NCBI GenBank assembly: GCA_900074885.1 | Contig: FJUW01000042.1 | Coordinates: 772,015-836,014, forward strand | From: Rhynchosporium graminicola | Lineage: Eukaryota; Ascomycota; Leotiomycetes; Helotiales; Ploettnerulaceae | Reading direction: 5' to 3' | Length of the DNA stretch: 64,000 nucleotides | Shown: positions 45,144 through 56,583 of the stretch, piece after piece | How the letters are laid out: every line of letters starts with the position of its first letter | How positions within the stretch are numbered: position 1 is the first letter of the stretch | The notes under the pieces: model-generated | What the model was told of the DNA's origin: nothing | Seen by the model: only the letters and a program-made list of their open reading frames with translations | The model's database searches: none | Made by a program: the position numbers and the translations under genes

Positions 45144-45630
45144 CTTGAATAATCTAAGGAGCGGCTTCTGCGTCAACAGAGTACTGAACAGTCGTCGAGA
45201 AGCCACAATGGTTGATTGAGAGGTTTCGAATTACGATAATTAATCGCATCAGGAGGCGTTGGGGATTTGCTTGTAAGGCAACAGTCGCGCGGATCTGGGA
45301 GGAGGGTTAAATTTAGAGATCAGGTGGTCCAGGTCGCGTTGGACGTTCTCAGTTCATCGCGTGATATAACGGGTGAGGGCGCAAATCATATAGCATATCA
45401 AAACAATCCTAGAAAACACACGGTCACGGTCATCGCTGCCTTGTCGCGTCGGACCGTGTTGAACCGCGTAAATGGATTGTGGCAGGTCACTAAAACCTTC
45501 GAGGTTTCGGATACTCCCACACCCTGAATCTGAAGAGGGGTGACTCAAAGCGAGGACTCACCGGTATCTCCCCCACCAAAAAGTCAAGATTTGTCAGTTG
45601 ATAACAACAACACACGATCAGAATACAAAG
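45144..45630. promoter_or_regulatory. shared divergent promoter region CDC9 / AsnRS
   Basis: 487 bp between start codons pointing apart. It contains ACGCGTTG-like and CGCG-rich short words (45285-45480), but no exact MCB (ACGCGT) site that I can see. Confidence 0.45.
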
Positions 45631-47438
45631 ATGGCCGCAATTCAAGAACTCGCAAGTCGAGCGAAGCTGGACACAATCTATGTCGACACAGACGCAGGCA
45701 CAGACGACCAAGCTGCAACTGGAGAGGAATCAAAACCATACAAGTCGCTGGCCTACGCATACATTCAACAGGGTGGTAGTGAGGGCAAGACATACCAATC
45801 GCGCGCATCTGTGACCGGTGCAGTTAGTGCAGATGGTGATCCAGCCGAGAGATTGGTGTGGAAAGAGCCTGCTAAAGCTGCAGTGAAGAAGGCTGTTGGC
45901 GCATTAGATGCACACAAGAAGAAAGTCCTAAAACAACAACAACAAGCTGCGCAGGAAGAGGAGAAAGAAAAGGCACGTCTGAAGACCCTCGAGGAGGCGA
46001 AGAAAATTGTTCTTACTGAGGATGAGAGTCTGCCGAAGGCTGTTAAGATCACAATTGGAGAAAAGAGCATTACACTGGGCGAGGGAGATGTTAAGGGCAC
46101 ACGGGTCAAGGTTTCTGGACGCATACACAGACTGCGACAACAGAAGCAAGCTACATTTCTTACTTTGATTGATGGATACGGACACTTGCAATGTGTGATC
46201 TCAGGAAACTTGACTAAGACCTACGAGGCTCTCACTTTCGCTCAAGGAACTTCATTGACATTGTACGGTGAGATGCGAAAAGTTCTAGCTGGACAAACTG
46301 CTCCCGATGATCGTGAGCTTCATGTCGATTTCTACAGAGTCATTGGTGCGAGTCCTTCTGATGCCGAAGCTATCACCAACAAAGTCTCCGCTCAACAGGA
46401 TCAATGGGATTCTGCTATGTTGGACAACCGTCACTTGGTCCTTCGAGGAGATACCGCATCATCAGTCATGAAGGTTCGATCAGCTGTTGAATGGGCTTTC
46501 GCAAAGGCATACAGAGAGCTCCGTTTCACCAAGATCAGCCCTCCAGCTTTCGTACAAACACAAGTCGAAGGTGGATCCACACTTTTCGAACTAGATTACT
46601 ACGGAGAAAAGACATATCTCACCCAATCCTCCCAACTGTACCTCGAGACCGGCCTCCCATCGCTCGGAAACGTGTACTGTATTGAGAAATCTTTCCGGGC
46701 CGAGAAATCATTGACCCGTCGTCATCTTTCCGAATATACCCATGTCGAAGCCGAGCTTGACTTCATTGATTTCGACGACTTGCTAGATCACCTGGAAGAG
46801 ATGATCAGTCGAGTCATCACCACCATTCTCGACGACAAGGAAATCGCCGGCTACATCAAGGAACTCAACCCCGAATTTGCACCTCCTACCCGCCCATTCA
46901 AGAGAATGCGTTACTCAGACGCCATAAACTGGCTCAACGAGCAAGATCCTCCCATCTTGAACGAAGAAGGTAACCCTCATGTGTTCGGAGACGATATCGC
47001 TGAGGCTGCTGAGCGTAGGATGACGGATATCATCAACTTGCCTATCCTCCTGACGCACTTCCCGGTCGAGATTAAGGCTTTCTACATGAAGAAGGATCCA
47101 AATGACCCAAGGGTAACGGAGAGTGTTGACGTGCTTATGCCGGGTGTTGGAGAGATTGTTGGTGGATCTATGAGAATGGAGGGGTACGAGGAGTTGATGG
47201 ACGCGTATAACAGGGAGGGCATCTCGCCCAAGGAGTACTATTGGTATACTGAGCAGCGAAAGTACGTATTGACCCAACCCTTCCCTCACAGATGTGCTAA
47301 CTCGGTCACAGGTACGGCACTTCTCCTCACGGTGGTTACGGATTGGGTCTTGAGCGCTTCATTGCTTGGATCTGCAAGCAGCATTCTGTTCGTACTTGCT
47401 GCTTGTATCCTCGATTCATGGGTCGCTGCAAGCCTTAG
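45631..47438 (+). CDS. DED81: cytosolic asparaginyl-tRNA synthetase
   Basis: Class IIb synthetase charging tRNA-Asn. Exons 45631..47261 and 47312..47438 (585 aa); ATG 45631 is the first ATG of a frame preceded by TTG. A fungal N-terminal module ([16 protein letters not shown]; later a Lys/Gln helix) precedes the OB-fold ([19 protein letters not shown]). Catalytic motifs: motif 1 region, motif 2 ([19 protein letters not shown]), and motif 3 [12 protein letters not shown], supplied by the second exon. [17 protein letters not shown] and [19 protein letters not shown] separate AsnRS from AspRS. Confidence 0.95.
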
Positions 47439-49884
47439 GTTTGTGGCTTTGTTATGTCACTTGCCGCATATATCAAGCTCTGTGCTTGGACAATCCTTAT
47501 CGCGAGATGGAAAGTCTTTGCTAGCCAGCCAATTGCTCAGATAGATAGATTTGCTTTAGTTTTGGGAGAGCGTTAACGATATCATCTCGTGCTTTCTCTG
47601 CACCTCGCAGTTCTTACGCTCACGCTTTATCTTCGTTGGTCCTAATCTTCCAATTCATGCCTGGAGTCCTAGCTATGGTCACGCGATCGCTCGGAAAGTA
47701 GATGGAACACAGATTCCTCAGGCAAGAAGCCAAAGCCAGCACTAGCACCTAGCAACATGAATAGTCAGGTGCATCGTACCTACGTACACATTTAACATCG
47801 GAAGCTGGGTGTACTCCGTAAGAAATAGAAAGAAGAAGCGGGTAATATGAAATGTCGAAAGATGCCACGAAGCTTTTCTTTTTCTTGCTCTCAGCGTCTA
47901 AATCGGGCTGTAGATCTGCATCTGATAAGCGAAACATCTCGGGGGCCCGGGTGGGTCAGGGGTTGTTTTGATTCAGGTTGACGGGGGCCTGGCTTGGCTT
48001 GGCTTGGCTTGGCTTGGCTTGACTTGGGAGGAAATTTGAAACGGCGCTGGCGTGGGCGAACAAGAAGAATATAGAGCGGGAATCGATGGGCAGGCACAGA
48101 GAGGATGAGATGATTTCTTTGGGTTGTTTTTGGGCATGGAATGCTTCTTGGATCATGGAGGCGTTTTCGATGTGTATGATGGGCTTGGGTGGATTGGTTG
48201 GGTTGGGAACAGCAGAGATGGGATGAGATTGAGATTATCCGGTTTGTTCGGAAGTGTGGTACTGTAGGAGGAGGGAAAGTGAAAGTCTAAGACGATGGAT
48301 TAAGACGATAGGATCTTCGATAGCTTCATCCCCATCGGACGGAAGGTTTATCAAACGTAACAAACACTCTGCACTCTGTCGTTCCTGACTTTGGCCGGAA
48401 ACTGATCCCGCCGGAATGTCTAGCTAGCTCTCAGGATTGTGGGGTTTCTCCGATGTCTATGATCTCAAACTTGACGGACGTGGTCTCGTGATTCGGAGGT
48501 TTGAGATGGTTGGGATGAGACTGCATGAGATGAGATAGTTCGGGCGAGTTGGTGATGTGAGAGAGGCACGATTGTTGGCTACTGACGTTTCTTGACTCTT
48601 GAGCCAGGAGATTGGTGAAGATGTTGGTTTTCGGTGCTACTGTGAGACCATTGCAGCTGGTATCTTGAGGGCGTCTATATTGTATGTAGTATGCGAGCAT
48701 AACTCAGTCTAGCAGAGTAGTACTGTAACTCTTAACATACCAAGATAAGATGGTTTGTTATATTGGTCTCCAAGGAATGTGATGGATCGTGGTAATTGGT
48801 GGTATGTGTTCCTGAAACATAGCTGGTGAATACTTCCTTCTCTTGTGAAGACTGTTGACACGCTTCTATACTCACTCACTCACTCACTCACACGTACTCC
48901 AACGATATGCTTCTTTCTACTCGTATTCCAACGACATGCTCATCTATGCCAAGGTTCACATGAACTTGTAACAGTTCAGAGTTCAATTGCTCAATCAATT
49001 AGAGGTCGACATTGCATTTTGATTGGCCGCATAGCTATTTTTAAAGAACACTCAAGGTGCCCGCTAAGCGATAAACAGCTAGCTCAGTTTCTCCTGTAAA
49101 ATTACCCAGCTCCTTATTTGGACTCGGCCGCCATGCCATCCTCTCCTGCCTGCCTGTCGTCTTGATTCATTCCGTACCGCTTTCTCCTTCTTCTCCAAAT
49201 CCCTCTTCGATTCCTCTCGTCCTCTCTTCCTCTCGGCTCTATTGCTCCTCATCCTTCTTCAACTCTTTTGCTTCCCCGGCTTCTTCTTGGCCACTTCTTT
49301 TTGTAGCCAGTCCCACGCTCATTATCGCTTCTTATTCCATTTCTTCCATCAATCCATTTACATACCATAAACTCTTTATTCCGGATCCTTCAGCCAACAA
49401 CCAAACCACACTCGCTCCCTCAGGCACATTCTCCCTATTCTTTGTTCTGCCAACCACTTGCACTACTCAAATCCCTCCTACAATCAACATCCTCCTCGAC
49501 TGAAGTCTGCGAAGCCCTTCTTCGAAATTCCGAACTACATCCGCCTGTTCGTTCTCACCTGCAATTTGGCCTGCATACTTTGTATAAACACTGCGGATAT
49601 CTAATCATACAAGAGCTTGTTTTATCAAAGATTCTCCCGGCAGACTTCCTTCGAAACCTACTCGATCCCACGAATCAAAACAGATCGAAATCCTTTGTAT
49701 GTAACGAACCCTTACAATCGATTGAGACCACGCAATCGAACCTTCTCCAGCCAGTTTACATCAATTAATCTTTGCCTTCAACCCCATAACTGGTGCCTCC
49801 TTTTGGCACTTTTAATCCTTCAAAACGGCTGTATTATCATCACTTGTGCGGGACAGCTCTGTCCTGCCACCTCATCTTCTCGGG
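47439..49884. other. spacer and probable long leader of the Nrd1-type gene
   Basis: No gene recognised. Holds (GGCTT)n at 47991-48020 and (CTCA)n at 48871-48891. From about 49150 the plus strand becomes strongly pyrimidine-rich, as in a long fungal promoter/5' leader with several short upstream frames before ATG 49885. Confidence 0.5.
47991..48020. repeat. (GGCTT)6 microsatellite
   Basis: Six perfect pentanucleotide units followed by a variant unit, in intergenic DNA. Confidence 0.9.
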
Positions 49885-56443: not shown

Positions 56444-56583
56444 CCCTCGGTCGTCTAGTTGGTTTATGGCGTCCGGCTGTAAATGTCTATTATAGTCTAC
56501 CGGAATGTCGCGCGTAAGCACAGTGGAAATTTGCTCTCAGACAGCTGTTAACAGTTGTACAGGTTCGACTCGCGCCTGAGGGA
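56444..56583 (+). tRNA. tRNA-Tyr (GTA) with anticodon-loop intron and an extra T-arm insertion
   Basis: Folds as tRNA-Tyr: acceptor stem CCCTCGG (56444-56450) pairs with CTGAGGG (56576-56582; one G-U), discriminator A 56583. D arm has AGTTGGTTTAT with G18G19. Anticodon stem TCCGG (56472-56476) pairs perfectly with CCGGA (56500-56504), anticodon GTA at 56479-56481. A 16-nt intron (56483-56498) sits at the universal 37/38 site. T stem GCGCG (56510-56514) pairs perfectly with CGCGC (56571-56575), but 49 nt separate it from the T loop TTCGACT (56564-56570). The insertion (56514-56562) starts GTAAGC and ends ACAG, and its exact removal restores the T arm. A TTTT terminator follows at 56590. It is functional only if the insertion is removed. 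Confidence 0.85.
56514..56562 (+). other. spliceosomal-intron-like insertion in the tRNA-Tyr T arm
   Basis: 49 nt between tRNA positions 52 and 54 (the G at 53 is duplicated at the edges). 5' GTAAGC, internal GTTAAC resembling a fungal branch site, 3' TACAG, a length typical of fungal mRNA introns. Not at the site cut by eukaryotic tRNA endonuclease. Spliceosomal origin is inferred from ends and length. Confidence 0.6.

Follow-up and report, generated by a model that had tools for sequence, protein, structure and literature searches.

On our best reading, at least 16 tRNA genes of the Rhynchosporium graminicola genome hold spliceosomal introns, and we consider it highly probable that, across the whole set, these introns lie in RNA polymerase III (Pol III) tRNA precursors and are removed by the spliceosome. 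Splicing is usually divided between two separate worlds: nuclear tRNA goes to the endonuclease-ligase pathway, and mRNA goes to the spliceosome, as do U6, U3, and some rRNA in fungi. Here, individual precursors appear to pass through both systems, and alanine, an essential isotype, seems dependent on this. The window, that is, the whole stretch of DNA that was analyzed, comprises 64,000 nucleotides (C18:772015-836014; handles of this kind denote contigs), and the genome searched comprises 55.3 Mb in 121 contigs.

Anatomy of the tRNA-Tyr gene

A first-pass annotation of the window had described a tRNA-Tyr gene with 49 extra nucleotides in its T arm. All of the tRNA-Tyr parts, as well as the extra 49 nt, were confirmed where it had placed them, and the features of the gene are as follows (window coordinates).

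56444..56482, + strand: tRNA-Tyr(GTA) exon 1, positions 1-37, with acceptor strand CCCTCGG and anticodon GTA (deletion scan, ARAGORN)
56451..56462, + strand: Pol III A box TCGTCTAGTTGG, positions 8-19, unbroken (sequence; limits following an excerpt of PMC3978253)
56483..56498, + strand: canonical tRNA intron, 16 nt, at 37/38 (sequence, deletion scan, ARAGORN)
56499..56513, + strand: exon 2, positions 38-52 (sequence, deletion scan)
56514..56562, + strand: spliceosomal-type intron, 49 nt, at 52/53, GTAAGC...ACAG (sequence, scans, motifs)
56548..56552, + strand: branch-site-like TTAAC, with its A at 56551, 11 nt before the intron end (motif comparison)
56563..56583, + strand: exon 3, positions 53-73, with T loop, 3' T stem, acceptor strand, and A73 (sequence, deletion scan)
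56562..56572, + strand: Pol III B box GGTTCGACTCG (sequence; limits following the same excerpt of PMC3978253)
56590..56593, + strand: TTTT, probable Pol III terminator (sequence)

Without its introns, the gene gives a full cloverleaf with the conserved bases and the anticodon GTA, as befits a nuclear tRNA-Tyr; its acceptor stem is CCCTCGG/CTGAGGG with a C1-G72 pair, and its T loop is TTCGACT. At the sequence level, both the internal Pol III promoter and a terminator are present. At the DNA level, the B box is unbroken, since the final G of the intron takes the place of G52; in the A box, tRNA position 9, usually a purine, is C.

The insert reads GTAAGC...TGTTAACAGTTGTACAG. In a motif-free scan of 6,561 deletions (20 to 100 nt, any start), the best product was unique and was the one obtained by removing GTAAGC...ACAG, which bears out the earlier proposal that this removal restores the tRNA; the three equal-best deletions are slides by 0 to 2 nt that give one product, and one of the three is GT..AG. 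The insert does lie in the T arm, but it had been placed after the 5' strand of the T stem, and the GT-AG cut falls at 52/53, within that strand. ARAGORN called no tRNA in the window, nor in the padded unspliced gene, and after removal of the 49 nt (A-padded, with a short tail) it called tRNA-Tyr(GTA) with a 16-nt intron. At its cut-off, Rfam gave no match for this gene in the window; at a lax threshold, its tRNA model matched exactly 56444-56583 with 21.5 bits (cut-off, 29) and an insertion of 55 letters at the T loop. The gene is probably a working one. A subthreshold MIR815 match beside it (24.8 bits; cut-off, 63) was taken as chance. The window also holds an asparaginyl-tRNA synthetase-like gene (Pfam; 45544-47544, + strand), lying some 9 kb away from the tRNA gene and with no sign of a link to it.

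Recurrence of inserts among nuclear tRNA genes

We surveyed 77 nuclear loci, consisting of the 45 nuclear loci among 59 matches to the Rfam tRNA model and 32 reached through box-B and D-arm patterns, with most pattern matches judged by eye from the matched text. In a uniform scan, the best score of each undeleted locus was compared with that after removal of a GT..AG segment (42 to 74 nt, with a branch motif) and with that after removal of segments with control end pairs. GT-AG removal raised the score by at least 2 in 16 of the 77 loci, a proportion that is not a frequency because the patterns were self-designed and many matches were unread, and it raised the score by at least 1 in no other locus. 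Control end pairs gave a gain of at least 2 in three of the 77; these three belong to the 16, and in each of them GT-AG removal scored higher. The 16 interrupted genes (two Tyr, three Ile-AAT, three Ala-AGC, one Ala-CGC, two Gln-CTG, and one each of Ser-GCT, Gly-GCC, Leu-TAG, Lys-TTT, and Pro-CGG) hold 17 inserts of 47 to 59 nt at many positions.

Pro-CGG, C42: inserts at 5/6 and after 46
Ile-AAT, C23: insert at 5/6
Ile-AAT, C18:671499 and C29: insert at 6/7
Gly-GCC, C69: insert at 8/9, cutting the A-box edge
Leu-TAG, C96: insert in the D loop, after 20
Ala-CGC, C35: insert at 21/22
Tyr, C59: insert at 27/28
Ala-AGC, C41, C52, and C116 (L116, L118, and L128): insert at 33/34
Ser-GCT, C45: insert at 42/43
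Gln-CTG, C28 and C116: insert after 46
Tyr, C18: insert at 52/53
Lys-TTT, C113: insert at 65/66

By our own parse, 13 of the 16 interrupted genes also carry the canonical intron at 37/38, those without one being the three Ile genes; Pro-CGG has three introns, since its canonical intron adds to the two inserts. Canonical introns measured 11 to 45 nt in the genes parsed, and the interrupted genes span 134 to 206 nt. Genes free of a spliceosomal-type insert were found for Gly-GCC (4 of 5), Tyr (1 of 3), Ile-AAT (1 of 4), Ser-GCT (1 of 2), and Pro-CGG (1 of 2), and inserts are carried by both of the Gln-CTG genes found and by the sole Leu-TAG and sole Lys-TTT found. The product of the Gln gene on C28 retains a T-T mismatch in the T stem. 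The five Lys-like T arms belong to Lys-TTT, three Lys-CTT genes, and one fragment. The genome matches read included no recognizable nuclear gene for Asn, Asp, His, or Ala-TGC; such genes may be absent, unread, or interrupted beyond the reach of our patterns. Two of the 17 introns (Gly at 8/9 and Tyr at 52/53) lie at the edge of a Pol III box; by rough reckoning, random placement would give similarly few, and we make no claim of box avoidance.

Insert boundaries and splice motifs

The boundaries were assessed in 17 motif-free deletion scans, one for each of 12 genes, two for Pro-CGG (each intron with the other removed), and three for the Ile genes, for which 21,114 start-and-deletion combinations were scored per gene. 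A single best product emerged from 10 of the 17, and in eight of these 10 it removes GTAAG...AG (Tyr C18, Tyr C59, Gly, Lys, the Pro acceptor intron, and the three Ile genes). The two other single-best products, those of Ala-CGC and Leu, are not GT-AG; the GT-AG product scored 0.4 lower, and both junctions are in the D loop. The GT-AG deletion tied with 8 to 137 others in five scans (Ser, the two Gln genes, and Ala-AGC on C41 and C52) and scored 0.5 under several tied others in two (Ala-AGC on C116 and the Pro variable loop). At those nine unforced junctions, the boundary was picked with splice motifs in view; for Ala-AGC, it was chosen also on account of the anticodon AGC and the G3-U70 pair (the mark of alanine tRNA), and because the three genes share identical exons.

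All 17 tRNA introns, and the two introns of the U6 gene described below, conform to GTNNGY...YAG with a YTRAY branch motif, the branch A lying 9 to 16 nt from the end. In this, the tRNA introns agree with U2-type spliceosomal introns, which have GT...AG ends, a 5' site resembling GTRAGY, and a YTRAY branch site close to the 3' end. Splice and branch motifs are present at 8 of 8 forced junctions, and the branch motif occurs in 8.8% of shuffled interiors (14 tRNA and two U6 introns). None of 19 canonical introns is GT..AG (20 control loci were given, of which 19 parsed with an intron). For comparison, 20 groups of presumed mRNA introns were drawn from joined long frames in the window; the five top-scoring, picked by frame and motif rather than from transcripts, begin with GTAAGT (four) or GTATGT (one) and measure 46 to 76 nt, compared with 47 to 59 nt for the tRNA inserts. 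Chance as the source of the inserts was rejected on the deletion scans, the shuffles, and the 77-locus scan. Self-splicing group I and group II introns were rejected as well, as 47 to 59 nt is too short for a catalytic core of hundreds of nucleotides.

Paralogous copies and exon conservation

The Tyr D arm matched the genome 52 times, and the three exact matches are the genes on C18, C39, and C59. The C39 gene has the canonical 12-nt intron only, and the C59 gene has a 50-nt insert (GTAAGC...GCTAAT...CCAG) at 27/28, without which it equals the C39 gene across the junction. Compared with C39, the window gene is changed on both sides of pairs 2-71, 29-41, and 31-39, all of which remain paired (by eye). 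The first-pass annotation had proposed to see whether every copy carries the insert, and for Tyr, given the C39 gene, this is not so; therefore, Tyr by itself does not force the conclusion that the insert is spliced, and the window gene could be dispensable or dead.

For Ala, every copy does carry one as far as our searches reach. A 22-nt pattern for the Ala 3' end, allowing up to three mismatches, matched the genome three times, at the three Ala-AGC genes. An Ala 5' pattern matched 17 times, and the 12 matches read are the three Ala-AGC genes, Ala-CGC, four Gly-GCC, Gly-CCC, one Pro, the uncounted locus L171, and a fragment lacking a T arm. In these pattern searches, with 12 of the 17 5' matches read, 4 of the 4 Ala genes found carry a spliceosomal-type insert.

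Exons are constant while introns have diverged. The three Ala-AGC genes are 100% identical over 72 nt of exon, and their inserts are 60, 55, and 48% alike (shuffled, 46%), their canonical introns 33, 56, and 46% (shuffled, 34%), and their 100-nt upstream flanks 48, 58, and 65% (shuffled, 47%), a few of these intron and flank identities exceeding the shuffled level. Only four letters, AGCA, stand between the two introns of these genes. The two Gln-CTG genes have their insert at a common position, and the inserts are 59% alike. Once their inserts are taken out, the Ile-AAT genes on C23, C18 (671499), and C29 are identical over 74 nt to an uninterrupted Ile gene on C58; their matches to the tRNA model had no good 5' acceptor strand because the genes are interrupted there.

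An interrupted U6 snRNA gene

The first-pass annotation had pointed out that fungal U6, itself a Pol III transcript, can carry spliceosomal introns, and the U6 gene of this genome has two. The U6 search gave three matches, and the one above the cut-off (L157, C66 near 344744) is interrupted twice. With borders marked by slashes, it reads GGACATTTGGT/GTACGT...ACTAAC...TATAG/CAATTTGAAACGATACAGAG...GGATGA/GTAAGT...ACTAAT...GCAG/CACGCTC, the exon borders having been set by eye against the known U6 sequence. Its introns, of 56 and 53 nt, lie on either side of the ACAGAGA region. In fission yeast, according to an excerpt of PMC8917221, U6 is a Pol III transcript and its intron is removed by the spliceosome.

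Proposed processing and alternative explanations

We propose that the precursor of the window tRNA-Tyr gene is made by Pol III with two introns of different kinds. The intron at 37/38 would fall to the tRNA splicing endonuclease and ligase. Guided by GTNNGY, YAG, and the YTRAY branch site of the pre-tRNA, the spliceosome would cut out the 49-nt T-arm intron as a lariat, so that the cloverleaf is restored. The spliceosome probably acts first and the endonuclease later, because the endonuclease reads the tRNA body, which most of the inserts disrupt. On balance, we also favor the broader reading that all Ala and some Gln, Lys, and Leu precursors are Pol III transcripts needing both mRNA-type and endonuclease-type splicing. 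There would then be no tRNA-Ala, and hence no translation, without the spliceosome, which, with a U6 gene that itself has two introns, would be an obligate tRNA processor.

The first-pass annotation had left a choice between two splicing systems acting on one precursor and an insert that disables the gene. The former is strongly favored, because inserts of the same kind occur at other positions in 15 other tRNA genes, among them every one of the four Ala genes found, as well as in U6. Were the latter true, the interrupted loci would be disrupted pseudogenes, that is, spare tRNA copies into which intron-like DNA was inserted and which are no longer made into tRNA. The Tyr, Gly-GCC, Ile-AAT, Ser-GCT, and Pro-CGG copies counted above, with at most a canonical intron, fit that picture; the presence of inserts in each of the four Ala genes found, in both Gln-CTG genes, and in the sole Lys-TTT and Leu-TAG genes found does not. 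Neither do the identical Ala-AGC exons beside diverged introns, the agreement of three Ile genes with the uninterrupted gene at 74 of 74 exon letters in spite of differing inserts, the three double-sided stem changes retained by the window gene, or the preserved splice and branch motifs. We judge pseudogenes improbable as an explanation of the set, and as the sole account they were rejected in view of the Ala genes, the Ile exons, and U6.

Ectopic bulge-helix-bulge (BHB) introns, cut by the tRNA endonuclease at nonstandard sites, are known from the red alga Cyanidioschyzon and from archaea, and many ectopic introns in Guillardia nucleomorph tRNA genes form no defined BHB (both from an excerpt of PMC3978253); a visible BHB is therefore not always required. 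Such an origin is nonetheless very improbable here, as 17 of 17 extra introns are of the form GTNNGY...YTRAY...YAG with lengths of 47 to 59 nt, against 0 of 19 GT..AG among canonical introns. To our knowledge, the fungal tRNA endonuclease cuts at 37/38 only. It is equally hard to credit that the loci belong to Pol II transcripts from which introns are removed as in mRNA or long noncoding RNA: spliceosomal introns are usual in such transcripts, but these loci preserve the tRNA exons together with the sequences of boxes A and B and are frequently followed by T-runs.

A further proposal, compatible with spliceosomal removal from Pol III precursors, concerns where the introns came from: they may derive from introners, intron-generating transposable elements, and be spliced by the spliceosome. 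The many insertions at different positions in a single genome speak for this, and among 120 pairs of 16 introns (14 tRNA and two U6), the best eight scores (22, 21, 18, 18, 17, 17, 16, and 16) are in slight excess over 400 shuffled pairs (maximum, 20; 1 in 120 at about 17), an excess that the common branch motif may partly explain. Against this, no near-identical pair occurs among those 16 introns (the 14 tRNA introns of the genes other than Ile and the two of U6), the lengths are ordinary, and the 49-nt insert of the window gene had no second copy in one genome search using that gene. We regard an introner origin as unlikely.

Relation to known introns

Spliceosomal introns in the nuclear rDNA of fungi, reportedly described in a 1993 paper on 18S rDNA that PMC11782384 cites, are likewise mRNA-type introns in a structural RNA, the RNA being rRNA. 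Canonical eukaryotic introns at 37/38 differ from the extra introns described here in position, length, GT-AG ends, and branch site. The U6 introns of Schizosaccharomyces pombe and other fungi are mRNA-type introns in an essential Pol III RNA, as described in the excerpt of PMC8917221; U6, however, is part of the spliceosome, unlike tRNA, and the tRNAs discussed here mostly also hold a canonical endonuclease intron. Fungal U3 snoRNA offers another small structured RNA with mRNA-type introns, albeit a different RNA, and the portions of the U3 intron literature consulted make no mention of tRNA introns. In Cyanidioschyzon merolae, the Guillardia nucleomorph, and archaea, tRNA genes are broken outside 37/38, some by several introns; excerpts of PMC3978253 and PMC4090602 treat those ectopic introns as of BHB/endonuclease type, whereas the introns here have spliceosomal splice and branch sites.

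Among the open-literature matches listed, none deals with a spliceosomal intron in a nuclear tRNA gene. Spliceosomal introns are known from Pol III RNA; their presence in nuclear tRNA genes, extending to every gene found for an essential isotype, is provisionally new. These precursors may serve as natural substrates for learning how the spliceosome finds introns in Pol III transcripts and how two machines are ordered, and they also bear on the origin of introns in RNA genes that tolerate exact splicing only.

Consequences for tRNA annotation

Presented with the joined products of 13 interrupted genes, ARAGORN called a tRNA in all 13 and gave the isotype reported here in 12. The Lys product was read as Ile(TAT) without an intron, and we assign it to Lys-TTT because of its tRNA body and the Lys-CTT paralogues. 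When the same 13 genes were left unspliced, eight were called, with introns of 67 to 77 nt, and five were missed; the isotype agreed with ours for Ser and both Gln genes and was another for the four Ala genes and Leu. The unspliced Ala-AGC genes, identical in their exons, were read as Thr, Val, and Ile with 72- to 77-nt introns, which is one source of wrong tRNA annotation. Among the Ile genes, the uninterrupted one and that on C23 were called Ile(AAT), and those at C18:671499 and on C29 were missed. Given such misses and misreadings of interrupted genes, tRNA counts may be wrong for some fungi.

Other tRNA-like loci

Several loci were kept outside the 77: the tRNA-like L130, L131, L143, and L171; the relics or fragments L140, L164, and L168; and L115, L117, L121, L123, L129, L141, L146-L154, and L167, which were fetched and in which no tRNA was visible. 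L171 (C19:19715-19950), a possible further tRNA gene, carries a GT-AG insert of 61 nt within its anticodon stem; without those 61 nt, it scores 32.2 versus 25.2, with one stem pair failing and an ambiguous isotype, and it was left uncounted. L143 and L035, the latter within the 77, are tRNA-like with mostly good arms and have about 90 to 105 nt in an anticodon loop without T33; the scorer gave no parse for L035. L164 and L168 (C40 and C74) are partial Lys tRNA copies that run into AT-rich DNA. Finally, contig C1, of 69581 bases, carries 14 of the 59 tRNA-model matches and is probably the mitochondrial genome.
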